This document shows positions 29,168 through 60,073 of a DNA stretch of 64,000 nt, piece by piece; position 1 is the stretch's first letter; every line of letters begins with the position of its first letter. The DNA lies in NCBI RefSeq assembly GCF_030269665.1, contig NZ_BSTS01000002.1, positions 372,001 through 436,000 of the forward strand. The letters are read 5' to 3'. The position numbers and the translations under genes were made by a program. The notes beneath the pieces are model-generated. The model saw nothing but the letters and a program-made list of their open reading frames with translations, was not told the origin of the DNA and ran no database searches. The DNA comes from Actinomycetospora sp. NBRC 106375. GTDB taxonomy: Bacteria; Actinomycetota; Actinomycetes; Mycobacteriales; Pseudonocardiaceae.

Positions 29168-29740
29168 TCAGCCCAGCGCCGCCGCGGCCGCCCGCAGCGC
29201 CGCGAGCTCCTCGCGGGCGAGCTCGGGGTACGTCGGCCCGGCGGGCAGGTCGCACCACCGCTCGAAGGCGCGGTAGAAGGCGTCGACACCGAGGCCGGCG
29301 GCCAGGCCCGCGCCCGGGTCGCCGACCCCGCGGGCGCGCAGCGCGTCCGCGATCGCCGCGCGCAACGACGCCCGCTTGAACGCGGCCCGCTCGGCGAGCT
29401 CGCCGTTCTCGGCGATGACGGCGTGCAGGCGCGGGCCGTACTCCCGCTGCTCGGCGGTGAACACCGCGGTGGCGGCGTCGAGGGCCGCGGCGACCGCCGC
29501 CAGCGGCGTCGCGTCGGCGGGCGCCCCGGCGATGCCGTCGGCGAGGAGCCGCCCGAGGACCTCCTGGCCGGCGAAGAGCACCTCGCGCTTGTCGGCGAAG
29601 TGCCGGAAGAAGGTGGTCCGCGTCAGCCCGGCCCGTTCCGCGATCTGCGCGACGGTCGTGGCGGCGTAGCCCTGCTCGCCGATGAGGTCGAGCGCGGCGC
29701 GCACCAGCCGCGGACCGGCGTCCGGTTCCCATCGGGCCAC
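29168..29740 (-). CDS. TetR/AcrR family transcriptional regulator
   Basis: 190 residues. HTH at about residues 8-52 (RLVRAALDLIGEQGYAATTVAQIAERAGLTRTTFFRHFADKREVLFAG), then a helical ligand domain. The start GTG 29740 is preceded by TAGTCT with 6 nt spacing (minus strand 29752-29747), so the transcript is probably leaderless. It is divergent from an NAD(P)-dependent oxidoreductase. A perfect 23-bp palindrome (29785-29807) and an additional half site lie between them, so it very probably represses that gene and itself. Confidence 0.92.
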   Translation of the reverse strand: MARWEPDAGPRLVRAALDLIGEQGYAATTVAQIAERAGLTRTTFFRHFADKREVLFAGQEVLGRLLADGIAGAPADATPLAAVAAALDAATAVFTAEQREYGPRLHAVIAENGELAERAAFKRASLRAAIADALRARGVGDPGAGLAAGLGVDAFYRAFERWCDLPAGPTYPELAREELAALRAAAAALG

Positions 29741-29760
29741 CGGACCAGACTAGTGATGCG

Positions 29761-29807
29761 ACTCAGTACCGTCACGGTGCTACGGTGACGGTACTCAGTA
29801 CCGTCAC
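29761..29807. promoter_or_regulatory. TetR operator: perfect 23-bp palindrome plus upstream half site
   Basis: At 29785-29807, GTGACGGTACT and AGTACCGTCAC are perfect 11-nt arms around one C. The string ACTCAGTACCGTCACG also occurs at 29761-29776 and again at 29793-29808, 32 bp apart, giving a second partial site. Both lie between the divergent TetR and oxidoreductase starts and would cover both promoters. Confidence 0.75.
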
Positions 29808-29823
29808 GTCCACGGAGGGCATC

Positions 29824-30708
29824 ATGCGCGTTCTCGTCACCGGCGCCGCCGGCCACATCGGCTCGGCCGTCGTCCCCGAGCTGCTCCGGGCGGGCCACGA
29901 CGTCGTCGGCCTCGCACGCTCCGAGACCTCGGCGGTCACCGTGAAGGAGCTCGGCGCCGAGGCGCGCCGCGGCGACGTCGCCGACCTCGACGGCCTGCGC
30001 GCGGCCGCGGCCGACGTGGACGCCGTCGTGCACCTCGCCTACGACCACGACGCCGTGCACCGCGGCGACCTCGCGGACGCCGCGGCGGCGGACATCGCCG
30101 TGGTCCGGGCGCTGGGTGAGGCGCTGGCGCCAAACGGCGGCACGCTGATGGGGGTCGGCATGACCCGCACCGGCGACGCGGACCTGGACCGCGTGATCGA
30201 CGCGAACCCCCGTTCGGCCGTCACGGGCGAGCTCACGGCGCTCGCCGACCGCGGTGTGCGGACCCTGCTCGTCGCGATCCCGCCGCTCGTCCACAGCGAC
30301 CGGGACCGCGGCGGGTGGCTCCCGACACTCATCGGGATCGCCCGGCGCGCCGGGGTGTCCGGCTACGTCGGCGACGGCGCCCAGCACTGGCCCGCGGCCC
30401 ACACCCTGGACCTCGCGGCGCTCTACCGACTGGGCCTGGAGCAGGCCCCGTCCGGCACGACGCTGCGCGGCGCCACCGAGCCGGGTGTCACCGTCCGCGC
30501 GATCGCCGAGCGCATCGGGCGCCACCTCGACGTGCCCGCCGTCAGCGTCCCCGCCGAGCGGGCCACGGAGCACTTCGGCCCGTTCGGCGCCTTCATGGCC
30601 TTCGACTTCAGGATGGACAACGCGGAGACCCGCGCCCTGGTGGGCTGGGAGCCGGCGCATCCCGGTGTCCTCGCCGACCTCGACGCGGGCCACTACTTCC
30701 GCGGGTGA
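29824..30708 (+). CDS. NAD-dependent epimerase/dehydratase family oxidoreductase
   Basis: 294 residues, extended-SDR type. Nucleotide-binding motif VTGAAGHIGSAVVPELL at residues 4-20, LARSETSAVTVKELGAEARRGDVADLDGL, then a downstream domain with SGYVGDGAQHWPAAHTLDLAALYRL. The usual YxxxK pair is not obvious (MTRTGDADLD in that area), so it may be an atypical member of the SDR5 type that binds NAD(P) for a reductase or isomerase step. Under divergent TetR control through the palindrome at 29785-29807. ATG 29824 follows GGAGGGC. Confidence 0.88.
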   Translation: MRVLVTGAAGHIGSAVVPELLRAGHDVVGLARSETSAVTVKELGAEARRGDVADLDGLRAAAADVDAVVHLAYDHDAVHRGDLADAAAADIAVVRALGEALAPNGGTLMGVGMTRTGDADLDRVIDANPRSAVTGELTALADRGVRTLLVAIPPLVHSDRDRGGWLPTLIGIARRAGVSGYVGDGAQHWPAAHTLDLAALYRLGLEQAPSGTTLRGATEPGVTVRAIAERIGRHLDVPAVSVPAERATEHFGPFGAFMAFDFRMDNAETRALVGWEPAHPGVLADLDAGHYFRG

Positions 30709-30752
30709 TCACCGGCCGAGGTGCGCAGCGCGGCCGGGAGGGACCTGCGGTG

Positions 30753-31688
30753 ATGATCGGCAGCGGCGGGTTCTGCGACCTCGCCGGACTGCCCCGGGCC
30801 ACGTTCGACGCGGTGTTCTCCCGGCCCGACGTGATCGTGGCGGGCGTCTTCGCCCCGGCCGGATCGGTCGCGCCCGCGCCGGGCGGCTACCGGGTCCGCG
30901 GCCGCTGGGGCTTCGCCAGCGGCTGCGAGCACGCCGACGTGCTGTACGGCAACGGCGTCGAGGTCGGCGAGGACGGCGACGGCGCGGAGGGCGCGGAGGG
31001 CGCGGAGGGCGCCGGCGTGCACCGGCTCCGGATGGCGCTGTTCACCCGCGACGAGGTGCAGATCGAGGACACCTGGACCGCCGCCGGACTGTGCGGGACC
31101 GGCAGCCACCACATCCGCGCCGACGACGTCGTGGTCCCGGCGGAGCGCACGTTCGACGTCATGACCGCCGCCGACTGCCTCGACGCCCCGATCCTGCGCG
31201 TGCCGCGGCCCGCTCTGTTCGCGGTGCAGATCGCGGCGGTGGCGCTCGGCGTCGCGCGCGGCGCCCTGGACGACCTCCGCGCGCTGGCCGCCGGCAAGGT
31301 CCCGATGTTCGACGGCGAGGCGCTCGCCGCGAACCCCCTGTTCCGGTTCGACCTCGCGGGCGCCGAGAGCGGCCTGCACGCCGCCCGCGCCCTGCTGGAC
31401 GACCTCGCGACGTCGGCCTGGCGGCGGGCGGTCCGGGACGACCCGGTGACGCTCGAGCAGCGGGCCCGGCTGCGGGCCGCGGCCGCGTGGGCGACGGCGC
31501 AGGCCGTGGACGTCGTGACCACCGCCCACCGGGCCGCCGGCAGCGGCGCGGTCCACGCCGACAGCACGCTCGCGCGGCGCCTGCGCGACATCGGGGTCCT
31601 GCGCCAGCACTTCCTGGTCAAGCGCGACGTGCTGACCACGGCGGGCGCGGTCCTGTCCGGCGGCGAGCCGGCGGTCCCGGTCTTCTAG
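30753..31688 (+). CDS. Acyl-CoA dehydrogenase-like flavoprotein lacking the N-terminal domain
   Basis: 311 residues. The text MIGSGGFCDLAGLPRATFDAVFSRPDVIVAGVFAPAGSVAPAPGGYRVRGRWGFASGCEHA matches the middle and C-terminal domains of the HsaA/DszC-like acyl-CoA dehydrogenase-type monooxygenases, but their first ~90 residues (helical domain) are absent. A GGGAGGG site upstream of GTG 30750/ATG 30753 suggests translation really starts here. Either this is a 5'-truncated, decaying gene or an unusual short form. An internal Glu-Gly-Ala run (30985-31014) is encoded by a 9-bp tandem repeat. The C-terminus is convergent with the Hsp70-like gene. Confidence 0.7.
   Translation: MIGSGGFCDLAGLPRATFDAVFSRPDVIVAGVFAPAGSVAPAPGGYRVRGRWGFASGCEHADVLYGNGVEVGEDGDGAEGAEGAEGAGVHRLRMALFTRDEVQIEDTWTAAGLCGTGSHHIRADDVVVPAERTFDVMTAADCLDAPILRVPRPALFAVQIAAVALGVARGALDDLRALAAGKVPMFDGEALAANPLFRFDLAGAESGLHAARALLDDLATSAWRRAVRDDPVTLEQRARLRAAAAWATAQAVDVVTTAHRAAGSGAVHADSTLARRLRDIGVLRQHFLVKRDVLTTAGAVLSGGEPAVPVF
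30990..31014 (+). repeat. 9-bp tandem repeat GGCGCGGAG
   Basis: About two and a half to three copies of GGCGCGGAG in the coding sequence of the acyl-CoA dehydrogenase-like gene, giving a Gly-Ala-Glu run. It may vary by slippage; it sits in a predicted surface loop. Confidence 0.6.
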
Positions 31689-31700
31689 GACGCCGACCGG

Positions 31701-33266
31701 TCACAGTGCCTGCACACGCTCCACCACGGCGTCGAGGCGCGTGAGGCACGGGCCCAGCGTCTCCAGCTCGCCGCGGCCCTCGCGCAGCACCTGCAGCGCG
31801 ATGTGCGGCGGGAGCCCGGGGAACGGGGTGTGGCGCGTGCCGATCGCGGTCCCGACGCCGTCCGCGGCCGCGGCCAGGTTCGCCCGGACCTCGGGCGGAC
31901 CCCCCGCCCGCACGGTCGGCGCGACGGTCCCGACGAGGTCGGTGACGCCGGCGGCCTCCGCGATCGCGGCGATCTCGCGGGCGATCTCCCCGGTGACGTC
32001 CCGGTCGGGCGGCGCGGCGTGACGGGCGGCGGGGGCCCGCCGGACCGTCTCCGTCTCGTCCGCGGAGGGCGCCGTCGGCACCTCGAACCCGGCGGGCGTC
32101 AGCGGCGGCGTCGGGTCGGCGGGCGGACCGGACGGGCGGCGCGGCCGCGCTGGGATCCGGACGTGCTGGGTGGCGCTGACCGAGCCGGGCACCGTGGACA
32201 ACGCCCCGAGCACGACGACCGCCTTGGGGTCGTCACGCATCCCCGGCACGTGGCCGAGGACGTCGGCGAGCAGCGTGCTGATCCGCGGGGTCCGGCTGGT
32301 GCTGCCGGTGAGGTAGACGTCGACGAGCCCGTCGGGCGTGGTGCCGGCCCGCGCGACGGTGTCGCGCAGCTCGGTGACGCTGCGCGCCAGCAGCGGCTCG
32401 ACGGCCTTCTCGTACTCGCGGCGCGTCACCCGGATCTCGTCGTCGTACCCGGGGACCCAGAGGTTCACCGCGGGCCGGCGCGAGAGCGTCTCCTTGGCCT
32501 GGGTGACGTCGCGGCGCAGCAGCGTGCGGTGGCGTTCCGCGGTGCGCCCCTCGGCCTCCCACAGCGTGTTCCACCGGTCGACGTCGAGCGCCTCGGCGTG
32601 CTCGGCGAGGATCTCCATGAACGCGGCGTCGAGGTCCTCGCCGCCCAGCGCCACGTCCCCGCCCGGCGACCCGGCGAGCTCGAACCCGTCACCGCGGCGG
32701 CGCAGCACCGCGGTGTCGAAGGTGCCGCCGCCGAAGTCGTAGACGCCGATCATGCCGCCGTCCGGGACCGTGTCGCCGCTGCGCACGTAGTGGTGCGCCG
32801 CGGCCACCGGCTCCGCGACGAGGTCGGGCTCGCCGAGCCCGGCGCGCTCGGCGGCCTCGGCGAGACGGCGCAGCTCGAGGCCTCCGGCCTGCCAGCGCGC
32901 GGGGTGGGTCAGCACTACCCGCGACGGCGGGCGCCCCGAGAACCGGCGGACCGCCTCGCCCGCCACGCGGGCGAGCACGGCCGCGACGAGGTCGACCGTG
33001 GCGATCGTGCGGTCGCCGAGCAGCACCTGCTCCGAGGCGACCAGGGCCCGCTTCGGCACCCGCTCGGTGCGGTCCGGAGCCATCGCCGCCTCGGTGAGCG
33101 CGTCCCGTCCCACGAGGATCGCGCCGTCGTCGTCGAGACACACCAGCGACGGGACGTACTTCGAGCCGTCGATCTCCAGCACCTCGACCCGGCCGCCCGC
33201 GAGCGTCGCCGTCGTGGTGAACGACGTGCCGAAGTCGATCGCGAGGTCCCAGCCGGGAGTGGTCAC
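31701..33266 (-). CDS. Hsp70/DnaK-like ATPase
   Basis: 521 residues starting at GTG 33266, which overlaps the stop of the acidic protein by 4 nt. An actin-like ATPase domain covers about residues 1-375: phosphate-1 LAIDFGTSFTTTATL, connect-1 VVLTHPARWQ, phosphate-2 IGVYDFGGGTFDTAVL, adenosine motif VYLTGSTSRTPRI. The normal substrate-binding beta-sandwich is not visible; residues 380-521 are a Pro-rich linker and a helical tail (TGEIAREIAAIAEAAG, LREGRGELETLGPCLTRLDAVVERV). It is therefore an Hsp70-family ATPase of non-DnaK architecture. It is the last gene of an operon with a GrpE-like protein, which could act as its nucleotide exchange factor, and a dynamin-like GTPase. Confidence 0.9.
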   Translation of the reverse strand: MTTPGWDLAIDFGTSFTTTATLAGGRVEVLEIDGSKYVPSLVCLDDDGAILVGRDALTEAAMAPDRTERVPKRALVASEQVLLGDRTIATVDLVAAVLARVAGEAVRRFSGRPPSRVVLTHPARWQAGGLELRRLAEAAERAGLGEPDLVAEPVAAAHHYVRSGDTVPDGGMIGVYDFGGGTFDTAVLRRRGDGFELAGSPGGDVALGGEDLDAAFMEILAEHAEALDVDRWNTLWEAEGRTAERHRTLLRRDVTQAKETLSRRPAVNLWVPGYDDEIRVTRREYEKAVEPLLARSVTELRDTVARAGTTPDGLVDVYLTGSTSRTPRISTLLADVLGHVPGMRDDPKAVVVLGALSTVPGSVSATQHVRIPARPRRPSGPPADPTPPLTPAGFEVPTAPSADETETVRRAPAARHAAPPDRDVTGEIAREIAAIAEAAGVTDLVGTVAPTVRAGGPPEVRANLAAAADGVGTAIGTRHTPFPGLPPHIALQVLREGRGELETLGPCLTRLDAVVERVQAL

Positions 33267-33655
33267 ACCCAGCCGCCGTCGTGGTGCCCGTCGTCGTGCG
33301 CGTCGGTGCCGGGGTCGACCGCGTCGTGTCCCCCGGGGTCGTGGTCGTCGGAGAGTCCGAACGCGCGCGCCAGGTCCTCGGACCAGGCATCGTCGACGGC
33401 GGGGTCGTCGTCGCCCGCGGCGGCGTCCGGGTCGGCACCGTCGGTCGCGTCGTCGTCCGCGGGGTCGCCGGCGACCACCGCGAGCATGTGCTCCCACACC
33501 GAGTCCGGCAGCGCGGCGTCGTCGACCGCGAGCGACGAGCTGAGCAGCTCGTGCTGGTCGGGGCTCAGCACGGTGTCCGGGTCCGTGTCGGGGTAGCGGG
33601 ACATGTCCAGCCAGGTGGCCGATCCGGCTCCCCCGGCCTCCTGCGGCGCGGTCAC
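33263..33655 (-). CDS. Acidic Asp-rich protein linking the dynamin and Hsp70 genes
   Basis: 130 residues, not recognised. It starts at GTG 33655 inside the dynamin stop (GTGA) and stops inside the Hsp70 GTG (GTGA), so it is translationally coupled on both sides and is very likely a real protein. Residues 18-65 (TWLDMSRYPDTDPDTVLSPD, then ELLSSSLAVDDAALPDSVWEHMLAVV) look like a short helical domain; the C-terminal half is strongly acidic and His-rich at the end (DDDATDGADPDAAAGDDDP, HDDGHHDGGWV). It might be a client, an adaptor, or a metal-binding tail protein; all of this is inference. Confidence 0.7.
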   Translation of the reverse strand: MTAPQEAGGAGSATWLDMSRYPDTDPDTVLSPDQHELLSSSLAVDDAALPDSVWEHMLAVVAGDPADDDATDGADPDAAAGDDDPAVDDAWSEDLARAFGLSDDHDPGGHDAVDPGTDAHDDGHHDGGWV

Positions 33656-35535
33656 GACGACTCCCCTCCGGCGCGGGCCGGCAGCTTGTGGGCCAGCTGC
33701 TCGGCGTTCTCCCGCATCTGGTTGCGCTTCTTGAGCCGGGCCTCGACCTCGGCCTTGCGGCGGGCCAGCCCACTCTTCTCGCCGGCCAGGTTCTTCTCGT
33801 GCTCGGCGAGGCTCGCCGTCAGGCGGTCCTTCTCGGTGGTCAGGGCCGTGGTGATCCGCTGCGAGAGCACCTCGCGGGCGCCGGCCACGGCCTGGCTCAC
33901 GACGGGCGGGATCTCGTTGCCCAGCCGCGCGGTGACGTCCTGCAGGTAGCGGCGCGCGTCCTCGCGGCTGCGCGCCCCGCGCTCCTTCGCCCAGCGCCGC
34001 CAGGTGAAGAACCCGACGACGCCGACGCCCGCGGCGACCGCGCCGACCACCGCGAACGGTCCGAGCACCGCGGGGATGACGAGGTAGGCCATGTGCCCCA
34101 TGCCCATGCCCAGGCTCGCGGACATCACGCCCTGCTCGGCGAAGCTCGTGCTGCCCTGGCCGCGGGCGGCCTCGGGCAGCTGGGCGAGCCGCTCGGGGGT
34201 CTCCGGGACGACGCCGCCGAGGTCGGCCTCGACCCCCTGGAGGTCGGCGAGCAGGGCCGCCGCGAGCTCGGTCAGCTCGCGGCGCAGCATCGTGTCGAGG
34301 TCGATCCAGATCGCCTGCGCGCGGGGCGGCAGGTCGGTCGCGACCTCGTCGAAGACCTTGTGGTCGCCGGCGGCGATCCGGTCGCCGACCTCCTTGCGCA
34401 CATCCTCGAGGCGCCGGGCGAGCTCGGTGCGCATGCGCTGCTCGAGACGCACGGCCCGGTCGGAGAGCGTCTGGCGCCAGGTCGCGTTCTGGCCCTGCAG
34501 CGCGCTCAGCGCGTCCTTCTCGCGCTTGACCGACGCGGCGAACTCCGGGCTCAGCGACAGCGAGAGGGCCCGCCGGACCTGCAGCGCCGACAGACGTTGA
34601 GCCAGCCCCTGCGTCTGGTGCAGCAGGTTCGCCAGCCGCAGGCCGTCGGCGCCCTCGGCGAGCCCGGCGAGCTGGTCGGCGAGCGGGTCGATCCCGCTCG
34701 CCGCGCGCTCCTCGGCCGCCTCCTCCGGCTCCCCGTCGGCCTCGGCGGCCAGGGCGTCGGCCACGGCCCGGCTCGACACCCCGAACCACGGCGCGTCGGC
34801 GTAGCGCGGGGCGTGCCGGGCGATGAGCTCGACGTCCCGGGCGCGCACGGCCTCCCACGCCGGGAACTGGTCGATCTTGGTGAGGGCGAAGACGACGGTC
34901 GCGACCCGCTCGGTGGCGCGCTCGAGGAACGCGAGCTCGGAGGCGGTGATCTCGCTCGACCCGTCGAGGACGAACACGAGGGCGTCGGCGCGCTCCAGCG
35001 TCGCGAGCGTCAGGGCGGCGTGCCCGGCTACGAGACCGCCGACGCCGGGGGTGTCGACGAGCTCCAGCCCGCCGGCCAGCAGCGGCGCGGGCACCCGCAC
35101 CTGGACCTGGCTGACGTCCTCGTGCTCGGGCGCGCGGGCGCCGGGGTCGAGGGCGGCGTACTCCGCGACACCCTCGAGGGGGACGTCGCGTCCCTCGGTC
35201 CCACCGCCGAACACCACCGAGGCGCCGTCGGGGCCGTAGCTGACGACGATGTGGGTGCAGGTGGCGACGTCGGCGTCGACGGGCAGCAGGCCCGTGCGCC
35301 CGACGAGCGCGTTGATCAGCGAGCTCTTGCCGCGCTTCTTCTCCCCGACGACCACGACCGCCGCGCTGCCGCGGGCGACCCGGGCGACGTCGGCGTCGAG
35401 CGCCGCCGCGGCCTCGGTCTCGCCGTCCTCCTCGGCCGCGGCGCGCACCTCCGCGACGAGCCGCAGGACGTCGTCGGCCATCGGGTGGGGGCGGCGCCCC
35501 GTCCCGGCCGGTGTCGTGCGCGAGTCGGTGGTCAT
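33652..35535 (-). CDS. Dynamin-family GTPase, IniA-like
   Basis: 627 residues, close to mycobacterial IniA in length. The GTPase domain shows G1 GEKKRGKSSL (residues 64-73), the G2 threonine region DVATCTHI (89-96), G3 VDTPGVGG near 162 and G4 LTKIDQFP near 225. Long helical stalk segments follow, with a hydrophobic hairpin AYLVIPAVLGPFAVVGAVAA onward at about 481-510 that probably inserts into the membrane, then a coiled coil (VEARLKKRNQMRENAEQLAHKL). Bacterial dynamins of this kind fuse or protect membranes under stress. ATG 35535 overlaps the GrpE-like stop by 4 nt. Confidence 0.9.
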   Translation of the reverse strand: MTTDSRTTPAGTGRRPHPMADDVLRLVAEVRAAAEEDGETEAAAALDADVARVARGSAAVVVVGEKKRGKSSLINALVGRTGLLPVDADVATCTHIVVSYGPDGASVVFGGGTEGRDVPLEGVAEYAALDPGARAPEHEDVSQVQVRVPAPLLAGGLELVDTPGVGGLVAGHAALTLATLERADALVFVLDGSSEITASELAFLERATERVATVVFALTKIDQFPAWEAVRARDVELIARHAPRYADAPWFGVSSRAVADALAAEADGEPEEAAEERAASGIDPLADQLAGLAEGADGLRLANLLHQTQGLAQRLSALQVRRALSLSLSPEFAASVKREKDALSALQGQNATWRQTLSDRAVRLEQRMRTELARRLEDVRKEVGDRIAAGDHKVFDEVATDLPPRAQAIWIDLDTMLRRELTELAAALLADLQGVEADLGGVVPETPERLAQLPEAARGQGSTSFAEQGVMSASLGMGMGHMAYLVIPAVLGPFAVVGAVAAGVGVVGFFTWRRWAKERGARSREDARRYLQDVTARLGNEIPPVVSQAVAGAREVLSQRITTALTTEKDRLTASLAEHEKNLAGEKSGLARRKAEVEARLKKRNQMRENAEQLAHKLPARAGGESS

Positions 35536-35852
35536 CGGCTCTCCAGGGCGTACACGACGACCTCGGGCCGGCGCAGGACGCGGCCGTGGTCGAGGTATCC
35601 GGTGCGTTCGGTGCTCGCGACCGTGCGGTCGCGGGCGGGGTCGGCGGTGGGCTCGCGGTCGACGGCGTCGTGCTCGGCGCGGTCGAACGGCCGCCCGTCC
35701 GGCTCGATCGGGAGCACCCCCACCTCGGCGAGCCCGCGGTGCAGCCGGGCCCGCAGGCCGGGCCCGGTGTCGCGCAGGCGGTCGGCGAGGTCGATGCAGA
35801 GATCGACGAGGACCGTCCGATCGGTCGCCGGGGTCGCGGAGGTGGCCGTCAT
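35532..35852 (-). CDS. Miniature GrpE-like nucleotide exchange factor
   Basis: 106 residues. The C-terminal half matches the GrpE beta-wing domain: VGVLPIEPDGRPFDRAEHDAV, then ERTGYLDHGRVLRRPEVVVY, equivalent to GVEVI...G..FDP..HEAV and GY..NGRVIRPA.V.V in GrpE. The N-terminal half is only about 40 residues (VDLCIDLADRLRDTGPGLRARLHRGL), so the long dimerising coiled coil of GrpE (about 80-100 residues) is absent. As the Hsp70-like gene is two genes downstream in the same operon, it could serve that ATPase. Its stop overlaps the dynamin ATG. Confidence 0.8.
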   Translation of the reverse strand: MTATSATPATDRTVLVDLCIDLADRLRDTGPGLRARLHRGLAEVGVLPIEPDGRPFDRAEHDAVDREPTADPARDRTVASTERTGYLDHGRVLRRPEVVVYALESR

Positions 35853-35868
35853 GTCGTGGTCCTCGGGC

Positions 35869-36207
35869 TCAGAACCCGGCCGGGTCGTACGCGGTCGTGT
35901 CGGCGGTGCCGTCGTGGTCGGCGTCGACCGCGGCGGTGTCGTAGTCGCCGTCGCCGTCGGTGTCCATGATCATGGTGTCGTAGTAGCCGTCGCCGTCGGT
36001 GTCCACCACACCGGTCTCGAAGGTCCCGTCGTGGTCGGTGTCGGAGATCGACGTGTCGAGGCGGCCGTCGCCGTCGGTGTCGGTGGTGACGAGGTCGACC
36101 CGCCCGGACGCGTCGGTCTCGTAGGTGCCGATCATGGTGCCCGTGGCGTCGTAGACCCCGCCGTCGGCGCTGAAGTACACGTCGCCGGTGCCGGTGGTGC
36201 CGCTCAT
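35869..36207 (-). CDS. Asp-rich DxDxDG repeat protein (putative calcium-binding)
   Basis: 112 residues. After a short N-terminus (GTGDVYFSADGGVYDATGTMIGTYETD) the protein is built of about five repeats of 12-18 residues around DTDGDGxxDT (TDGDGRLDTSISD, TDHDGTFETGVVD, TDGDGYYDTMIMD, TDGDGDYDTAAVD, ADHDGTADTTAYD). Such DxDxDG loops bind calcium in thrombospondin type-3 and dockerin-like proteins. There is no signal peptide, so calcium or a surface-charge role inside the cell is open. It is the first gene of the lower operon, with the position of iniB in mycobacterial iniBAC; similarity to IniB is not claimed. GTC-rich DNA makes this stretch repetitive. Confidence 0.75.
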   Translation of the reverse strand: MSGTTGTGDVYFSADGGVYDATGTMIGTYETDASGRVDLVTTDTDGDGRLDTSISDTDHDGTFETGVVDTDGDGYYDTMIMDTDGDGDYDTAAVDADHDGTADTTAYDPAGF

Positions 36208-36245
36208 CGCGTCCCGTCCTCGTCGCGGGGCCCGTCGCCGTCGGC

Positions 36246-36312
36246 GGACCGTTCACGTCTCTGACGGTCCGGGCACGCCCGGATGTTCCGGCGTCCGCCG
36301 AGATTTCTCGGC
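36246..36312. terminator. Cluster of three short stem-loops between the two operon halves
   Basis: Palindromes: GCCGAGA-TT-TCTCGGC at 36297-36312, CCGGGC-AC-GCCCGG at 36269-36282, and GGACCGT / ACGGTCC with 11-nt spacing at 36246-36270. They lie 74 nt after the kinase-like stop and before the DxDxDG gene, in a 178-nt gap. They could end the sigma-GTPase-kinase transcript or regulate the lower operon. No clear ECF-type -35 (GGAAC) was seen in the gap by eye. Confidence 0.5.
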
Positions 36313-36385
36313 CAAGGCGCGGGAACGGCGCGGGTGCGCGACGAAGGAGCGCTGTCGAGCCGTCTCCTCGTCGCCGGGACAGACC

Positions 36386-37240
36386 CTAGAGCGCCGCGCG
36401 GGCGGCGGCGGCCAGGGTGCCGACGGTGGCGGTGCGCTCGGCGGGGGTCTTGGCCAGGGCGCCGGCGATCACGGCGTCGAAGGCGGCCGGCACGCCGGGG
36501 CGGTGCTCCGAGGGCTTCGGCACCGGGCTCTCGAGGTGCCCGCGCATCCGTTCGGGCAGGCTGCGGCCGGGGTAGGGGCGCGCGCCGGTGAGGCAGGTGA
36601 AGAGCACGCAGCCCAGCGCGTAGACGTCCTCGCGGTGATCGGTCGGCCCGCCGCGGAAGCGCTCGGGCGCGGTGTGGTCCAGCGACAGGCCGTTGCGGGA
36701 GACGAGGCCGAAGTCGCCGACGCGGACCTCGGTGGCATGCGCGTCGGCGAAGAGCACGTTGGACGGCTTGACGTTGCGGTGGGCGAGACCCCGGGCGTGC
36801 GCGGCGGCCAGGGCGCCCGCGACCTGCTCGACGACGGCGACCGCCCGCGCCGGGTCGAGCACCTCGTCGCGGCCGAGGACCGTGCGCAGGTCCGGACCGG
36901 CGAGCAGCGGGGTCGCGACGAACAGGCGGCCCGCGAGCTCGCCGTGGTCGAGCACCGGCAGGACGTGGGGCTCGTGCAGCGTGCGGGCGACGGCGCAGGC
37001 GCGCTCGAAGCGGGTGCGGAACTCCCGGTCGGCTCCGTCGGGGGCGAGCATCTTGAGGGCGACGACGCGGTCGTGCGCCTGGTCGTGGGCGCGCACGACC
37101 TCGCCCGAGCGCCCGCGGTGGAGGACGTCGGACACCACGTAGGGCCCGAGGGCCGGCGGACCGGCCCGGGGTGGCACCCCCACCGCGGCCTCCTCCCCGC
37201 CCATCGGCTCCCGCTGCGCGCCGTGTCGCGCGACGATCAC
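36386..37240 (-). CDS. Protein-kinase-fold protein with altered HRD motif (probable pseudokinase)
   Basis: 284 residues of the Hanks-type Ser/Thr kinase fold with no transmembrane or PASTA part. GTG 37240 overlaps the GTPase stop (GTGA); ATG 37204 is an alternative. The lysine of VVALKML is at residue 63 and the metal-binding DFG at 176-178, and the APE-like motif is TAPERF. However the catalytic loop reads HRNVKPSN (Asn156, codon 36775-36773), so the catalytic aspartate of HRD is replaced, and the glycine loop LHRGRSGEV is degenerate. ATP binding may persist but phosphotransfer is doubtful. It probably serves as a regulator of the IniC-like GTPase or the sigma factor it is encoded with. Confidence 0.85.
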   Translation of the reverse strand: MIVARHGAQREPMGGEEAAVGVPPRAGPPALGPYVVSDVLHRGRSGEVVRAHDQAHDRVVALKMLAPDGADREFRTRFERACAVARTLHEPHVLPVLDHGELAGRLFVATPLLAGPDLRTVLGRDEVLDPARAVAVVEQVAGALAAAHARGLAHRNVKPSNVLFADAHATEVRVGDFGLVSRNGLSLDHTAPERFRGGPTDHREDVYALGCVLFTCLTGARPYPGRSLPERMRGHLESPVPKPSEHRPGVPAAFDAVIAGALAKTPAERTATVGTLAAAARAAL

Positions 37241-38790
37241 GGACTCGACGTCCGAGCCTGCCAGCTCGGCGAGGTCGGCGCCGCCGGATCGGCGGGCTCG
37301 CCGGGCTCGTCGGGTTCGTCGGGTGCGGAGAAGAGGATGTGCTCGCAGAGCTCGCGGGCGGTGCGCACGTGGCGCTGCAGCACGCGCGACGGCCGGGCCT
37401 CCAGGCGACGCCACTGCGGGATCTGAGCCGTCGCGGCGGCGGCGATCTCGTCGCGCCCCGCTCCGGCGGCGAGGCCGAGGCGGCGCGCGTCGTCGACGCC
37501 GGTGGCGAGGTCGCGCAGGCGGGCGACGTCGTCGTCGCCGAGGCGCATCCGCCCGGCTTCGAGGTCGACGAGCGCCGCCGCGAGGTCCACCTGGCGCAGC
37601 GCGGGCTCGAGGCGCAGCCGGTCGAGGTCGGACTGCAGCGTGAGCAGGACGCGGCGGTCGAGCTCGTCGGGGGCATCCCACCCGAGGTGCTCGAGGGCGG
37701 CGATGCCGGCGCTCGCCCGCAGCCGGTCGGCGCCCGCGACGAACACCGTGTCGATGCGCTCGAGCACCGTGTCGATCCCGGAGCGCGCGGCGAAGCCCTC
37801 CAGCAGCGCGGGCGTCGAGCGACGGCCCTCGTCGAGCAGCGCGAGACCCACCCGGATGCCGTGCAGGCCGAGCAGCTCGAGGAGCCGCTCGCGGTCCTCG
37901 GCCGGGACCGGTCCGTCCTCCCACCCGCGGAAGCGCTGCACGGTGCGCAGCTTGCGGGTGGTCGTCCCCCGGTCGGCCTCGGCGAGGGCCCGGAGCGCCC
38001 GGGCGTCGGGCTCGCCGAAGTCCGGGCCGCGCGCGGTCTCGGCGAGCAGCCCGGCGACGGGCACGACGTCGGAGAGCACCGCGCGCAGCTCGCGGGCGTA
38101 GCGGTCGGCGACGCGGCGGGCGTCGGGCCACGGGTCGTCCTCGCCGGAGAGCGTGTCGATGCGGGACAGGACGCCGATCATGTTCGCGGCGCCGAGCCGG
38201 AGGTCGCCGGTCCAGGACCGGACCGCGTCGATGGCCTCGATGTCGTGTTCGCCGGGGTGGGGCATGAGGTAGACGACGGCGTCGGCGTCGCCGAGGGCGG
38301 CGAGGGAGTCCGGATCGAGCTTCGACAGCGAGTCCATGCCGGGGGTGTCGATGAGCGTGTGGCGGCTCAGGGCGTCGTTGGGGGTCTCAACGGTGAGGTG
38401 GCCGATCTCGCCGGGGTCCGCGTCCGTCATCGACGCCCCGACCCCGCCGGTCGCCGCCAGGGGCACGACGCGCTCGGTGCCGTCGCGGCGGTGCACGCGC
38501 AGGCGGGCCTGGTGGCCGTGGCAGAACCAGGTGACCAGCCGCGTCGTCTCGGTGGCCCCGGTGGCCGCGAGGCGTTCCTGGAGCATCGCGTTGGCGAGCG
38601 TGGACTTCCCGGCGTTCATCCGTCCGCCGACCGCCACGCGAATCCGGGGCTCGGACAGCCGCGTCACCAGGCCGTCGAGCCGGTCGCGCAGCTCGGGGGT
38701 GCGCAACCGGTCGCGGGTCTGCGCGCACAGCGCGACGAGGCGGGACGTCACGGGCCCGACGGGCCCCTCCGGCGCCGGCACGCGGGACAT
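37237..38790 (-). CDS. Dynamin-family GTPase, IniC-like
   Basis: 517 residues, similar in length to mycobacterial IniC. G1 is GGRMNAGKSTL (55-65), the switch region is TETTRLVTW (83-91), G3 is IDTPGMDS near residue 148 and G4 LSRIDTLSG near 208. Helical stalk segments follow; no clear transmembrane hairpin is seen, in contrast to the IniA-like protein. It starts 4 nt after the ECF sigma factor stop and its own stop overlaps the kinase-like GTG. IniA and IniC-like pairs probably work together, but here they are split by a kinase-like gene and a DxDxDG gene. Confidence 0.88.
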   Translation of the reverse strand: MSRVPAPEGPVGPVTSRLVALCAQTRDRLRTPELRDRLDGLVTRLSEPRIRVAVGGRMNAGKSTLANAMLQERLAATGATETTRLVTWFCHGHQARLRVHRRDGTERVVPLAATGGVGASMTDADPGEIGHLTVETPNDALSRHTLIDTPGMDSLSKLDPDSLAALGDADAVVYLMPHPGEHDIEAIDAVRSWTGDLRLGAANMIGVLSRIDTLSGEDDPWPDARRVADRYARELRAVLSDVVPVAGLLAETARGPDFGEPDARALRALAEADRGTTTRKLRTVQRFRGWEDGPVPAEDRERLLELLGLHGIRVGLALLDEGRRSTPALLEGFAARSGIDTVLERIDTVFVAGADRLRASAGIAALEHLGWDAPDELDRRVLLTLQSDLDRLRLEPALRQVDLAAALVDLEAGRMRLGDDDVARLRDLATGVDDARRLGLAAGAGRDEIAAAATAQIPQWRRLEARPSRVLQRHVRTARELCEHILFSAPDEPDEPGEPADPAAPTSPSWQARTSSP

Positions 38791-38794
38791 GCGG

Positions 38795-39358
38795 TCAGGC
38801 GGTCGCGGTGGCGGGGCGGTCGCTCAGCAGCTCAACGAGGGCCTGCCGCCCGCGGGAGAGCTGGGACTTGACGGTGTCGATGGGGATGTCGCGCAGTTCG
38901 GCGATCTCGGCGTACGTCAGGTCGCAGAGCTCGCGCAGCACCACGACGGCACGGTACTGCGGAGGGAGCTGTGCGAGCGCGCGGTCGACGTCCATCCGGG
39001 CGACGACCCCGCGGTCGGCGCCGCGGCTCGGCGTCGGCTCGGGCATCGACTCGGCGTCGGTGGGCTCGGGCGCGCGCTTGCGGCGGCGGACCTCGTCGAT
39101 CGCGGCGTTCGTCGCCACGCGGTAGAGCCACGTGCCCACTGCCGACCGGCCGTCGAACTCCCCGAGCCGCTTCCAGGCGATGATCATCGTCTCCTGGAGC
39201 GCCTCCTGGGCGTCCTGGTCGTTGGTGGTGATCCGCCGGCAGACCGCATACAGACGGGGCCGGTGCCGGGTCATGAGCTGGGCGAACGCCGGCTGGTCGC
39301 CGCCCGCGGCGAGCACGGCCAGCTCGGTGTCCAGCCGCTCGTCCGCCCCTACCGCCAC
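38795..39358 (-). CDS. ECF (extracytoplasmic function) RNA polymerase sigma factor
   Basis: 187 residues. Region 2 (about 20-95): QPAFAQLMTRHRPRLYAVC, DAQEALQETMIIAWKRLGEFDGRSAVGTWLYRVATNAAIDEVRRRKR, with the -10 recognition helix. Region 4 (about 125-180): LAQLPPQYRAVVVLRELCDLTYAEIAELRDIPIDTVKSQLSRGRQAL, with the HTH. There is no zinc-finger anti-sigma gene next to it; the downstream gene is a GTPase. GTG 39358 has GGAGGGG upstream. Its targets may include its own operon. A perfect palindrome (39388-39402) lies 30 nt upstream. Confidence 0.93.
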   Translation of the reverse strand: MAVGADERLDTELAVLAAGGDQPAFAQLMTRHRPRLYAVCRRITTNDQDAQEALQETMIIAWKRLGEFDGRSAVGTWLYRVATNAAIDEVRRRKRAPEPTDAESMPEPTPSRGADRGVVARMDVDRALAQLPPQYRAVVVLRELCDLTYAEIAELRDIPIDTVKSQLSRGRQALVELLSDRPATATA

Positions 39359-39387
39359 GACCCCTCCGCCGTCTCGCGCTCCGTGGC

Positions 39388-39402
39388 GTCACCCGGGGTG
39401 AC
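39388..39402. promoter_or_regulatory. Palindrome GTCACCC-G-GGGTGAC upstream of the ECF sigma gene
   Basis: Perfect 7-nt arms around a single G, in the 275-nt divergent region between the sigma factor and the hrpA helicase gene. A possible repressor site; the binder is unknown. The remainder of the 275 nt shows no gene. Confidence 0.4.
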
Positions 39403-39633
39403 CGGAACGCCCTGACCCAGGGCCAGACGTTACGTTCTGTCGACCACGACAGCCACCGGACTCACTCTGATGGCCTAGTATTGGTTTCGTTGCGTGACCA
39501 GAACGGCCGGGAACAGCGCAGGTCGCGCCGACGCTGACAATGGAGTCGAGGCCGCCGGTCCGCACCCGCAGACTGTCGAGGCCACCACACCATCGCCATC
39601 CCACCCGCCATCCCGCCAGGAGGAGACCGCCCG

Positions 39634-55493: not shown

Positions 55494-57221
<1,728 letters not shown>

Positions 57222-57246
57222 TCAACGGTTCTGTCACGAACGGCAC

Positions 57247-57289
57247 CGGGTCGTCGCACGTCCGCCCCGTGCGGACGTGCGACGACCCG
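57247..57289. terminator. 19-bp perfect stem-loop between prmD and the chaperonin gene
   Basis: Left arm 57247-57265 and right arm 57271-57289 are perfect complements around the loop CCCGT; weaker outer pairing (CACCGG/CCGGTG) extends it. It begins 13 nt beyond the prmD stop on the minus strand. There is no U-tract, so it may be a partial terminator, a processing site or an attenuator that lowers chaperonin/ADH expression relative to prmABCD. Confidence 0.7.
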
Positions 57290-57301
57290 AGAGCCGGTGT
57301 C

Positions 57302-57682
57302 CTACTTGTTCACCACGGGGGGCAGCATGTCGCCGATGAACTCGGCGGCCTCCTCGAGATTCCCGAACATGATCGTCCGGTCATCCATGTGGATCATCTT
57401 CCCGTAGTGGGTCGACATGTTCTCCTCGAACTCGGCGGCGTTGTAGAAGTCGGGCTCCTCGCCGAGCGCCTCGGAGATCTCCGAGTACACGAAGTCCATG
57501 CGGCCCTGGCAGTCCACGCGGATCATGGACGGCAGGTGCTTGACCGTCACGTTCTCCTGGCGGTCCATCACCTCCGCGACGACCACGCCGACCTGGTTGT
57601 TCATCAGGGTCACGCCGGCCATGCCGGACTCGGTGTTGTCCTGCTTGAACGGGCTCTCGGCCGTCTTGAAGCTCCTGGTCAC
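57302..57682 (-). CDS. prmD: Propane monooxygenase coupling (effector) protein
   Basis: 126 residues, the usual size of the MmoB/DmpM-type effector of soluble di-iron monooxygenases. Shows NTESGMAGVTLMNNQVGVVVAEVMDRQENVTVKHLPSMIRVDCQGRMDFVYSEISEALG, the core fold that docks on the hydroxylase. It lacks metal ligands, as expected. Start GTG 57682 is inside the PrmC stop (GTGA). It tunes substrate access and electron transfer to the di-iron site. Confidence 0.9.
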   Translation of the reverse strand: MTRSFKTAESPFKQDNTESGMAGVTLMNNQVGVVVAEVMDRQENVTVKHLPSMIRVDCQGRMDFVYSEISEALGEEPDFYNAAEFEENMSTHYGKMIHMDDRTIMFGNLEEAAEFIGDMLPPVVNK

Positions 57683-58869
57683 TGGTTCAGCTCCTTCGGG
57701 GGCTCGAGTCCGAGGTCGGAGAGGATGCCGGCGAAGCGGCTCTTGGCGCGGTCGAGGCTGTCCTCGAAGCGAGGGGGCTTGGCGTCCGGCTGCGACCACA
57801 GCGGCTGCATCGTGCGGGCCGCCTCGAGGCACTTCGGCACCCACTTGGCCGTCCAGCTGTCGAACAGCTGCTTGTTGTGATCCGCGAACTCGCGGTCCTG
57901 GGTGAGCGGGGCGAAGGCGGCGACGGTCCAGCGCAGGTCACGCTGGGCGAAGTCGTACTCGCCGGCGCCCATCACAGTGGGCGTCACGTAGTCGCCGTTG
58001 CCGGCGGCCGACTGCATGACCAGGTTCGAGCGGAAGAGCTCGCCGAGCAGGGGCTCGAAGACGATGTTGGTGGCGAAGATCATCTCGCCCCAGTCGTCCT
58101 CGATCGCGGTGATCTCCTCGACGACCTTGCGGACGCCCTGCCACTCGGCGTCGGAGTTCCAGGCCGCCGTGTGCGCGGAGCCGTCGAAACCCTCGATCTC
58201 CTCGCTGAGGGTGAGGTTGTACAGCGCCAGGTCCTGCGCGAAGCGGATCTTGTGCTCGCTGTTCACCACCATCGCCGTGTTGTGCATGTTCGTCGGGCCC
58301 GAGCGGTTGCAGCCGGCGAACACGTAGAGCCCGAGGACGTGCTCGATGTGCATCCAGGCGCCGACGTTGCGCTCGACGAAGCGGACCCAGTTCTGCGTCC
58401 ACTGCTCGAAGGCCTTCGCGTTGCGGGCGTTCTCGACGTTCTGGGTGACCTGCCGGACAACGTTGGCGTTGTTCCGGTACATCGTGAGTTCCCACTCCTC
58501 GTTGGGATCACGGAACTCGTGCCACCCGTGGGCGGGCCAGTTCTCGATCGGCTTGCCGCCGGAGCCGGGGCCGCGCTCGGGCTCGGGGTCGTCGACGCCC
58601 CACGCCTTGAGCTTGGTCCAGGTCAGCGGGTAGCCGCGGGAGCCGTCGGCGAAGCCGTAGATCCAGCCCTGGGTGAGGTAGTGGCGGGGATCCGGCTGGA
58701 CCTCGACCGTCACGTCCTCGTAGTGGGTCTGCTTGCGCTTCGCCGGCTTGAAGTAGTTGTAACGCCGGGCGCCGGGCCCGGAGTCGGGGAACTCCTTGGC
58801 GCCCGCTTCCGCGTCGGTGAAGACGGGCTTCGGAACGCTCCGCTCGGGACGTTCTTCGGTGCTTGTCAT
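57679..58869 (-). CDS. prmC: Propane monooxygenase hydroxylase small (beta) subunit
   Basis: 396 residues. Four-helix-bundle ferritin-like subunit without the di-iron ligands: typical segments YEDVTVEVQPDPRHYLTQGW, RDPNEEWELTMYRNNANVVRQVTQNVENARN, HIEHVLGLYVFAGCNRSGPTNMHNTAMVVNSEHKIRFAQDLALYNL, TVAAFAPLTQDREFADHNKQLFDSWTAKWVP. It pairs with the large subunit in an (alpha-beta)2 hydroxylase. ATG 58869 lies 2 nt after the reductase stop. Confidence 0.92.
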   Translation of the reverse strand: MTSTEERPERSVPKPVFTDAEAGAKEFPDSGPGARRYNYFKPAKRKQTHYEDVTVEVQPDPRHYLTQGWIYGFADGSRGYPLTWTKLKAWGVDDPEPERGPGSGGKPIENWPAHGWHEFRDPNEEWELTMYRNNANVVRQVTQNVENARNAKAFEQWTQNWVRFVERNVGAWMHIEHVLGLYVFAGCNRSGPTNMHNTAMVVNSEHKIRFAQDLALYNLTLSEEIEGFDGSAHTAAWNSDAEWQGVRKVVEEITAIEDDWGEMIFATNIVFEPLLGELFRSNLVMQSAAGNGDYVTPTVMGAGEYDFAQRDLRWTVAAFAPLTQDREFADHNKQLFDSWTAKWVPKCLEAARTMQPLWSQPDAKPPRFEDSLDRAKSRFAGILSDLGLEPPKELNQ

Positions 58870-58871
58870 GG

Positions 58872-59924
58872 TCAGCCCTCGTCCTCCGGCTCTCCGGTGG
58901 TGGTGAACTTGTCGTAGTAGATGTGCTGCTCGTCCATTCCGCGCTGGGTCAGCAGGGCGATTGCCGCATCCACCATCGGCGGCGGCCCGCACACATACGC
59001 ATCCATCCCTTCCAGCCCCGGCTCGTTCGCCCGGACGACCTCGGTGATGAGGCCGGTCGCGCCGTCCCAGTCGTCGCCGTCGTGCTCGGAGAGCGCGGGG
59101 ACGTACTGGAAACCGGGGATCTTCTCCTCGAGGGCGCGCAGTTCGTCCTCGAAGCACAGGTCGGCCTTCGTGCGGGCGCCGTAGTACAGGCGCGCCTTGC
59201 GCTCGCCGTCCTTCTCCGCGAGGGCCCGCAGGAGACCGAGCAACGGGGCCATGCCCGCGCCGCCACCGATGAAGACGATGTCCGAGGTCCGGTTCTCGCG
59301 GAGGGTGCAGGTCCCGAAGGGCGCCTCCACCTCGATGCGGTCGCCGACCGCCACCTTGTTCTCGAGGAACTGGGAGAACGCGCCGTCCGGGTAGATCTTG
59401 ATGACGAACTCGAACACGCCTTCGCGGTTCGGGAGGTTGGCCATCGAGAACGACCGGACCTCGCCGGTGTCGGGCACCGTCAGGTCCATGTACTGACCGG
59501 GGAAGAACTTGATGTCCTCGCCGGCCACCTGCTTCACCACGAGGTGGCGCATGTCCTTGGTGACCGGCTCGTTGGACACCACCTCGACGGTGCCCTTCCG
59601 CAGCGGGAGGCCACTCCGGATGATCTCCTCGTCGTAGTTGAGGAGCTCGATCACGAGATCGTCGTAGGCGTGGGCGCGGCAGAGGAGCGTCTGGCCCTCC
59701 TCGCGCTCCATGTCCGGCAGCGCGAAGGTCGAGTACCTGTCGAGGTCGATGTCGTCGACATCGCCCTCGAGGACGAACGATTTGCAGGCGGCGCACTGGC
59801 CTTCCTTGCAGCCGTGCATCAGCTGCAGACCCTGCTCCGAGGCGGCTCGCAGGATCGTCTGGTCCTCGTCGACCTCGATCTCGATGCCCACCGGTTCGAA
59901 ACGGACCCGGTGCTTGTCACCCAT
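58872..59924 (-). CDS. prmB: Propane monooxygenase reductase (2Fe-2S/FAD)
   Basis: 350 residues. N-terminal plant-type ferredoxin: Cys39, Cys44, Cys47 and Cys82 (GCKEGQCAACKSF, TLLCRAH) bind a 2Fe-2S centre. FAD domain RSFSMANLP near residue 155, and the NAD(P)H domain with GGGAGMAPLLGLL near 217 and YVCGPPPMVDAA near 310. It passes electrons from NADH to the di-iron hydroxylase. It follows prmA after a 149-nt spacer containing two hairpins, whereas the other subunit genes are coupled more tightly. Confidence 0.94.
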   Translation of the reverse strand: MGDKHRVRFEPVGIEIEVDEDQTILRAASEQGLQLMHGCKEGQCAACKSFVLEGDVDDIDLDRYSTFALPDMEREEGQTLLCRAHAYDDLVIELLNYDEEIIRSGLPLRKGTVEVVSNEPVTKDMRHLVVKQVAGEDIKFFPGQYMDLTVPDTGEVRSFSMANLPNREGVFEFVIKIYPDGAFSQFLENKVAVGDRIEVEAPFGTCTLRENRTSDIVFIGGGAGMAPLLGLLRALAEKDGERKARLYYGARTKADLCFEDELRALEEKIPGFQYVPALSEHDGDDWDGATGLITEVVRANEPGLEGMDAYVCGPPPMVDAAIALLTQRGMDEQHIYYDKFTTTGEPEDEG

Positions 59925-59959
59925 CGATGGCTTCTCCGTTCGGGAGCTGGATGCCGAAA

Positions 59960-59988
59960 TCCGGGCAAATCGGTCAGAATTGCCCGGA
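59960..59988. terminator. Stem-loop 1 in the prmA-prmB spacer
   Basis: Perfect 9-bp arms TCCGGGCAA / TTGCCCGGA around 11 nt. It lies 36 nt upstream of the prmB start on the minus strand. Possibly a processing or stability element. Confidence 0.6.
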
Positions 59989-60005
59989 CGAGGGCGTGAG
60001 GGATC

Positions 60006-60035
60006 GAGGGGGGCCGGTGTGACCCGGCCCCCCTC
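60006..60035. terminator. Stem-loop 2 in the prmA-prmB spacer
   Basis: Perfect 12-bp arms GAGGGGGGCCGG / CCGGCCCCCCTC around TGTGAC, 38 nt after the prmA stop on the minus strand. Together with stem-loop 1 it could reduce readthrough and make the large-subunit mRNA more abundant than the rest. Confidence 0.65.
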
Positions 60036-60073
60036 TCACCTCACCGTGCTGGTCTGGACCAGCCGGCCAACTG

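Follow-up and report, generated by a model that had tools for sequence, protein, structure and literature searches.

An actinobacterial operon linking an IniA/IniC-like dynamin pair to an Hsp70-like ATPase and a stalkless GrpE-like protein

Bacterial dynamins are commonly encoded as pairs in operons (PMC6104087). An actinobacterial case is mycobacterial iniBAC, in which paired dynamin-family GTPases lie in a single operon; IniA mediates membrane fission, and IniC has been too unstable to study (PMC6715688). In cyanobacteria, a dynamin ‘chaperone clade’ has a gene for a DnaK-domain protein downstream, and a linked activity has already been proposed (Jilly 2018, PMC5827413). Here we describe an eight-gene operon of Actinomycetospora sp. 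NBRC 106375, found in a stretch of 64,000 nucleotides (contig NZ_BSTS01000002.1, positions 372,001 to 436,000; hereafter ‘the window’), in which an IniA-like and an IniC-like GTPase are encoded together with an Hsp70-like ATPase and a GrpE-like protein reduced to its head. We propose that the operon encodes a paired dynamin membrane remodeller, likely controlled by a nucleotide switch derived from Hsp70, namely an Hsp70 nucleotide-binding domain (NBD) with a stalkless GrpE; this reading is tentative and falls a little short of probable.

The locus shares paired GTPases with iniBAC, and IniA (6j72) is the closest solved structure by sequence. A preliminary description of this stretch, made from the sequence, had named iniBAC as a precedent for the paired dynamins. 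Unlike the operon described here, iniBAC is driven by IniR (PMC5760070), and the available excerpts name no Hsp70, GrpE, kinase or sigma gene within it (PMC6715688, PMC5760070). As in the cyanobacterial chaperone clade, a DnaK-domain gene adjoins a bacterial dynamin gene, whereas a GrpE head, a sigma factor, a pseudokinase and an actinobacterial IniA/IniC pair go unmentioned in the excerpts of that report (PMC5827413). Because a DnaK-domain gene beside a dynamin has thus been described in cyanobacteria, the dynamin-Hsp70 linkage as such is known, and the actinobacterial version with a GrpE head is a new variant, not a wholly new system. Among the papers listed in our searches of the open-licence literature, we found none on actinobacterial dynamins with GrpE. 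A dynamin of Nostoc whose C-terminal domain resembles DnaJ (PMC6104087) also ties a dynamin to the Hsp70 system, but its J-domain lies inside the dynamin, whereas the NBD and the GrpE head are encoded here by separate genes. GAP1-N2/DO-GTPase conflict systems, which are common in actinobacteria, likewise combine GTPases with HSP70, sometimes an NBD-only HSP70, and GrpE (Kaur 2020, PMC7159879). However, their DO-GTPases occur with GAP1 and FNIII proteins, families that are unmatched in the operon, and the word ‘dynamin’ has no occurrence in the main text of that paper. We rejected membership of the operon in the DO-GTPase/GAP1 systems, as the Pfam scan of the eight proteins gave no DO-GTPase, GAP1 or FNIII match. 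Pfam holds families for all three. The LeoA/LeoBC system also has a two-dynamin arrangement; it is not known to include Hsp70 or GrpE.

Eight open reading frames with plausible start codons lie on the minus strand within positions 31701-39358 of the window. They are listed below from the first gene to the last, beginning with the sigma factor of the extracytoplasmic function (ECF) type and preceded by the upstream region.

39359..39633, no strand: intergenic region between the operon and a divergent helicase gene; conserved blocks, candidate promoters
38795..39358, minus strand: ECF sigma factor, 187 residues, GTG start; Sigma70_r2 1.9e-20, Sigma70_r4_2 4.7e-19 (Pfam)
37237..38790, minus strand: IniC-like dynamin-family GTPase, 517 residues; Dynamin_N 1.1e-10, with P-loop and DTPG seen in the sequence
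36386..37240, minus strand: pseudokinase, 284 residues; Pkinase 5.5e-28
35869..36207, minus strand: DxDxDG-repeat protein, 112 residues, named from its sequence
35532..35852, minus strand: stalkless GrpE, 106 residues; PF01025 2.5e-11, profile positions 100-163 of 165
33652..35535, minus strand: IniA-like dynamin-family GTPase, 627 residues; Dynamin_N 1.8e-17
33263..33655, minus strand: acidic protein, 130 residues, named from its sequence
31701..33266, minus strand: Hsp70-like ATPase, 521 residues; HSP70 2.1e-28, best stretch at profile positions 105-368 of 599

The junctions, read 5' to 3' from the sigma gene to the Hsp70 gene, measure +4, -4, +178, +16, -4, -4 and -4 nucleotides, and five of the seven are 4-nucleotide overlaps or a 4-nucleotide gap. 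The reading frames and the Pfam scan thus bear out the preliminary description, which had reported eight consecutive minus-strand genes of these families with five of seven junctions tight. They also agree with its dynamin pair, as Dynamin_N scored above its cut-off in both GTPases. The nearest solved relative by sequence of the larger partner is IniA 6j72 (E-value 4.2e-24 over residues 27-379). The maximum of the hydrophobicity score KD19 was 2.20 at residue 489 in the IniA-like protein and 1.27 in the IniC-like one, and the hydrophobic stretch near residues 489-507 of the former may form a membrane paddle. Among the Pfam and NCBIfam matches listed for the eight proteins, none is named IniB; the coverage of IniB by these libraries was not established.

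We parsed the loci of congeners with a simple codon-usage gene caller, which recovers the eight genes of the window, and then checked them by tblastn. The order sigma, iniC, kinase, DxDxDG, GrpE, iniA, acidic protein, Hsp70 is complete in seven of the eight full congener loci (L056-L058 and L060-L063), and the arrangement is therefore not due to chance. The conserved order that the preliminary description had made a point to check in relatives thus holds, with the eighth locus differing by the absence of GrpE. All eight carry the ECF sigma gene, seven carry the GrpE gene, and the same divergent helicase gene adjoins the block in every one. A ninth congener locus (L043), on a contig that is short, covers the last six genes. 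The window's IniA-like protein shares 96% identity with its counterpart in Actinomycetospora sp. C-140. The window, L043 and L056-L063 are referred to below as the crown loci. A diverged version of the block (L064) occupies another site, where the DxDxDG gene is placed before the kinase gene and an extra protein of 189 residues is encoded. In the block-free congeners L162-L167 (six of six informative loci), the CoA-binding and helicase genes that flank the block are separated by 1.2-2.8 kb (10.5 kb in the window) and have no module genes between them; a seventh candidate (L161) stopped at the contig edge and was not counted. One genome holds both L164 and L064, so that its helicase site is empty and a diverged copy lies elsewhere. 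The flanking genes are thus retained in six congeners that have no block, so that the block behaves as a single unit, and most simply it would have been gained or lost as such. Between the CoA-binding gene and the module, the window also carries TetR regulator, epimerase-like and acyl-CoA dehydrogenase-like genes (29168-31688), which are unmatched in the same interval of L059 and of the empty sites.

The AlphaFold2 model of the Hsp70-like protein, built with 33 sequences, has a mean predicted local distance difference test score (pLDDT) of 88.2 and comprises a complete NBD (residue 1 to about 370), a disordered linker and helices at 424-520; its C-terminal part consists of four helices with no beta-sandwich. 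The 50 PDB matches listed by Foldseek for this model are Hsp70 proteins aligned over the length of the NBD, in keeping with the family named in the preliminary description. Residues D11, K72, E152 and D177, which we take to be the equivalents of the catalytic set of DnaK/Hsc70, are invariant in the 33 aligned proteins. A profile of the DnaK substrate-binding domain matched none of 65 dynamin-linked Hsp70-like proteins and recovered the four canonical DnaKs used to build it; the profile is narrow, its four sources being mycobacterial, and some of the 65 proteins are cut by the end of their locus. The protein is thus predicted from its model to have no recognisable substrate-binding domain, which makes a classical Hsp70 folding cycle unlikely. 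Relatives carry swapped C-termini, including WD40, PQQ propeller, TPR, RDD and TIR domains and membrane segments with long tails. Two relatives have an NBD followed by a dynamin-type G domain, with Dynamin_N scores under the cut-off of 27 bits: P0192 falls just below it (5.8e-06, 26.9 bits), and P0190 is weaker (1.6e-04, 22.2 bits). These two proteins are apparently co-located with the IniA-like proteins P0053 and P0051, respectively. In a quick tree the family lies far from canonical DnaK; this tree has long branches and rows from two sampling routes, and it serves only to separate canonical DnaK. Hydrophobic tails were counted in 35 of the 65 Hsp70-like proteins near dynamins and in 20 of 21 in dynamin-free loci, a crude measure with at least one false positive (L064) that we did not use as evidence.

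The preliminary description had also called the 106-residue protein a miniature GrpE, and structure prediction agrees with this. Its AlphaFold2 model (mean pLDDT 93.8) has two helices (8-25 and 31-43) and six strands, and the best 12 PDB matches from Foldseek are all GrpE chains (best E-value 1e-6). The beta-wing is the conserved part of the GrpE head, and the long paired-helix stalk is missing from the model. The GrpE fold is known only as an Hsp70 exchange factor, and the stalkless protein is predicted to act in this way on the Hsp70 ATPase domain. Outside the crown group, the open frame of the GrpE head includes an upstream hydrophobic segment in 10 of 23 loci. This suggests a link to the membrane, although such upstream segments may partly precede the true start codons. 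The diverged locus L064 has a hydrophobic segment in both the GrpE frame and the kinase, and the window has it in neither. In the f31 family (L119, L121, L122 and L123), a membrane-anchored protein whose N-terminus resembles that of a lipoprotein ends in the GrpE head, and its gene lies near sigma and DxDxDG genes.

Beyond the genus, we searched 296 genomes sampled from the class with an IniA-like profile, which matched at 52 places in 46 of them, and the surroundings of 40 of the 49 dynamin places outside the window's own genome constituted our class sample. The nine places left out belong to seven g27 genomes, G056 and G136, so that Mycobacteriaceae are under-counted. Within 5 kb of iniA in the 40 loci, we found an iniC-type gene in 39, with profiles grown on these same loci, and an Hsp70-like protein in 27, with an iterated profile and in 10 of 12 families. 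Head-only GrpE occurred in 11, a sigma factor in nine and proteins related to the DxDxDG protein in five. Without iteration, an Hsp70-like gene lay at most 5 kb from the IniA-type dynamin in 19 of the 40 loci, against 0.30 expected; the expectation was derived from the number of Hsp70-like genes per genome over all 122 matches, the distances were taken for Hsp70 matches on the relevant contigs only, and one of the 19 loci (G164) is a canonical DnaK. We rejected the explanation that the linkage reflects a mere nearby dnaK operon, since canonical DnaKs (L126, L127, L132 and L136) and canonical GrpEs (L126 and L136) were recognised by tree, substrate-domain profile and sequence, and set aside. 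They were excluded from the coupling tally given below and from the substrate-domain test, and the GrpEs also from the count of upstream segments. The count of 27 did not exclude canonical DnaKs, but in every one of these loci a non-canonical Hsp70 is likewise encoded no more than 5 kb away.

The GrpE head showed a similarly regular position. Among the genomes of the window's family outside the genus (18 of 19 searched; G028, 74% complete, was left out), 15 of 18 have a head-only GrpE, scoring 125-146 bits against at most 40.4 for other GrpE matches, and in all 15 its gene immediately precedes iniA, both being on one strand. The genera with this arrangement include Amycolatopsis, Prauserella, Actinokineospora and Saccharomonospora, and those with Hsp70 beside the dynamin pair include Pseudonocardia, Saccharopolyspora and Paractinoplanes. 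When 120 listed proteins per list were compared by eye, 14 contigs not tied by name to Actinomycetospora were apparently shared between the IniA and Hsp70 lists, for example in Streptomyces sp. NPDC002889.

Several further arrangements were seen during these searches. Four Mycobacteriaceae loci (L126, L127, L132 and L136) have canonical dnaK about 2.7-5.9 kb from the IniA/IniC pair, and in L126, L132 and L136 separate Hsp70-like proteins without a substrate-binding domain also flank the pair. The window's own genome encodes two further dynamin pairs. One (L054) is accompanied by a 708-residue Hsp70-like protein with a membrane segment and tail and by a 714-residue His/Pro-rich protein, and the other (L055) by a short DxDxDG-like protein. 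An actinobacterial-type dynamin pair with Hsp70 was also found on a contig labelled Acidobacteria (L083), by possible binning error or transfer.

Based on these results, we suggest how the dynamin pair and its Hsp70-derived switch might work. Envelope stress would induce the operon via its own ECF sigma factor. By analogy with IniA and a Campylobacter dynamin pair, the IniA-like and IniC-like GTPases would form a joint assembly on the inner membrane that tethers, cuts or seals it. The NBD would cycle between ATP and ADP, its helical C-terminal part driving release or re-assembly of the dynamin lattice, a job of disassembly or licensing without client folding. The GrpE head, to judge from its fold, would open and reset the NBD, and the pseudokinase, acidic and DxDxDG proteins might serve as scaffold or sensor parts. 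The preliminary description had envisaged a membrane-remodelling machine whose assembly is driven by an Hsp70 cycle and gated by the kinase-like protein. The operon and its parts are real, but a classical folding cycle is unlikely for a protein with no recognisable substrate-binding domain. We infer that the linkage reflects a physical Hsp70-GrpE-dynamin machine.

Several observations weigh against a switch made of these two proteins. Most directly, GrpE heads and Hsp70s occur independently across dynamin loci: the 40 class-sampled loci comprise eight with both, three with GrpE only, 21 with Hsp70 only and eight with neither, and the corresponding numbers among the 20 of 31 named loci that passed a score filter are none, seven, eight and five. 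In the congener locus L059 (genome G002), the remaining seven genes retain their order and GrpE is gone; the DxDxDG and iniA genes are just 88 nucleotides apart (7275-7364), the locus is free of N, and tblastn finds no GrpE in it. This is a natural loss of GrpE. Furthermore, 13 of the 40 sampled dynamin loci have no Hsp70 within 5 kb, the Pfam scan found no DnaJ family among the eight operon proteins, and no clear sigma regulon emerged from a search with the motif conserved upstream of the operon. Because GrpE and Hsp70 are uncoupled and L059 has no GrpE, the GrpE head may be dispensable, or its target may be the dynamin itself or an Hsp70 encoded elsewhere; the readings that remain for it are that it serves unlinked Hsp70s, acts on the dynamin or is an optional accelerator. 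Each of the 18 family genomes has at least three Hsp70-family matches at E-value 1e-20, canonical DnaK included.

The same pattern bears on a different explanation, in which the GrpE head pairs directly with the dynamin (or with an unlinked Hsp70) and the Hsp70-like NBD is a separate sensor that was merged by chance into this version of the locus. The invariable position of the head beside iniA in the 15 family genomes is what this would lead one to expect, as are the uncoupled class sample, the absence of an Hsp70 within 8 kb from all seven named GrpE-head loci, the retention of Hsp70 without GrpE in L059 and the free swapping of Hsp70 C-termini (WD40, propeller, TPR, TIR and membrane tails). 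However, the GrpE fold is known as an Hsp70 exchange factor only, its beta-wing is conserved, and the two genes co-occur in the window, in four of four f31 loci and in four of nine f32 loci. We consider this explanation unlikely, though worth keeping in view.

The operon might instead be an anti-phage or conflict system, in which infection would prompt the dynamin pair to seal or wreck the membrane, with the NBD and pseudokinase as the sensing and threshold part. The PADLOC models LeoA (4.2e-20, residues 155-607 of 627) and LeoBC (2.8e-16, residues 59-604) match most of the IniA-like protein, and also match the IniC-like one (1.7e-13 and 4.1e-06, respectively), but these models lack curated cut-offs, and a general relation among dynamins would give similar scores. 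An Hsp70 NBD-TIR fusion of Actinomycetospora aeridis (P0185; TIR_2 4.8e-14) hints at a conflict use of the NBD family, although it is apparently on another contig than the A. aeridis module proteins. Hsp70 and GrpE do occur in GTPase-centric conflict systems (Kaur 2020, PMC7159879), and congeners differ in whether they carry the block. Nevertheless, the scanned flanking genes are metabolic or housekeeping, the eight proteins gave no match to the DO-GTPase, GAP1 or FNIII families, no effector domain was recognised, and mycobacterial iniBAC is known for its induction by wall stress (PMC5760070). A conflict role seems improbable.

It is very unlikely that the genes are co-transcribed under one ECF sigma factor yet functionally separate stress genes: the 178-nucleotide gap past the kinase gene leaves room for a second promoter, but the overlapping genes, the fixed order, the linkage repeated in other families and the NBD-dynamin fusions argue against it. 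The weakest explanation, that of a conventional chaperone set folding or stabilising the dynamins, is highly improbable and in its classical form rejected, since no substrate-binding domain is recognised and no J-protein is among the eight, even if the instability of IniC on purification (PMC6715688) makes a dedicated folding helper conceivable.

Returning to the dynamin pair with its Hsp70-derived switch, a broader version can be considered, in which actinobacteria possess a dedicated control of dynamins by an Hsp70 switch without its chaperone half and a stalkless, often membrane-anchored GrpE, with iniBAC as a reduced member. This switch, reset by the GrpE, would build up lattices of dynamin on the inner membrane or strip them. 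This is possible, but we do not hold it to be probable; nor do we put more trust in its corollary that, in mycobacterial-family genomes, the Hsp70 counterparts would be the membrane-spanning NBD proteins close by. Eukaryotes use Hsp70 to strip coats from membranes. If an Hsp70 ATPase domain and a GrpE head do control the dynamins, this would be a bacterial counterpart of such stripping with the chaperone domain removed, and it would bear on how bacterial dynamins switch on, switch off and recycle and on the role of IniA/IniC in envelope stress. The gene linkage of dynamin and Hsp70 is in any case extended from cyanobacteria to many actinobacterial families, and the small expressible parts (a 106-residue GrpE, a 521-residue NBD protein and two GTPases) are suited to direct tests.

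As to the remaining proteins, the pseudokinase carries the motif HRNVKPSN, in which the Asp of HRD is changed to Asn, as had been noted at the outset when its catalytic Asp was called mutated. It has also lost the alphaC Glu, and the DFG motif and the VAxK Lys are kept. The HRD Asp is absent from all ten crown loci, being replaced by Asn (HCN in L062); the alphaC Glu is absent from all nine that cover the region, and the VAxK Lys is changed to Arg in two of nine (L061 and L062). In L064, HRD, Glu and Lys are intact, and the kinase continues into a membrane segment and then a further domain that is probably extracellular; the window kinase has no membrane segment (KD19 maximum 1.18). Because the catalytic residues are lost in the crown loci and are intact in the membrane-spanning L064 protein, the window kinase would appear to be a decayed membrane receptor kinase kept for a non-catalytic job. 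As such a remnant, it might act as a ‘gate’, which is just one option. The DxDxDG protein has repeats resembling calcium loops, which suggests a function of that kind, and no leader was seen in it. In the acidic protein, the motifs WLDMSRYPDTDPD and LPDxVWEHMLAVV are conserved, and the tail is rich in D. The protein is present in all ten congener loci (L043 and L056-L064), and no counterpart was found in the loci searched beyond the genus. Neither of these two small proteins matched a Pfam family above cut-off.

Upstream of the operon, an alignment of nine loci and the diverged L064 revealed conserved blocks in 39359-39633, namely CCATTGTCAGCG, TTCCCG..TGGTCAC and a GAACGTAACGTC-like block, which are candidate promoters. 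A search of the window's own genome with GGAACGTAACGTC gave seven one-mismatch matches, including the operon's own, and the reversed control gave none. No anti-sigma family was matched among the eight operon proteins, and the tRNA and Rfam scans of the window returned 0 matches. Elsewhere in the window (55494-61648), a GroEL-family gene is clustered with a gene for a methane/phenol-type diiron hydroxylase, and its product is probably a dedicated chaperonin for the oxygenase.

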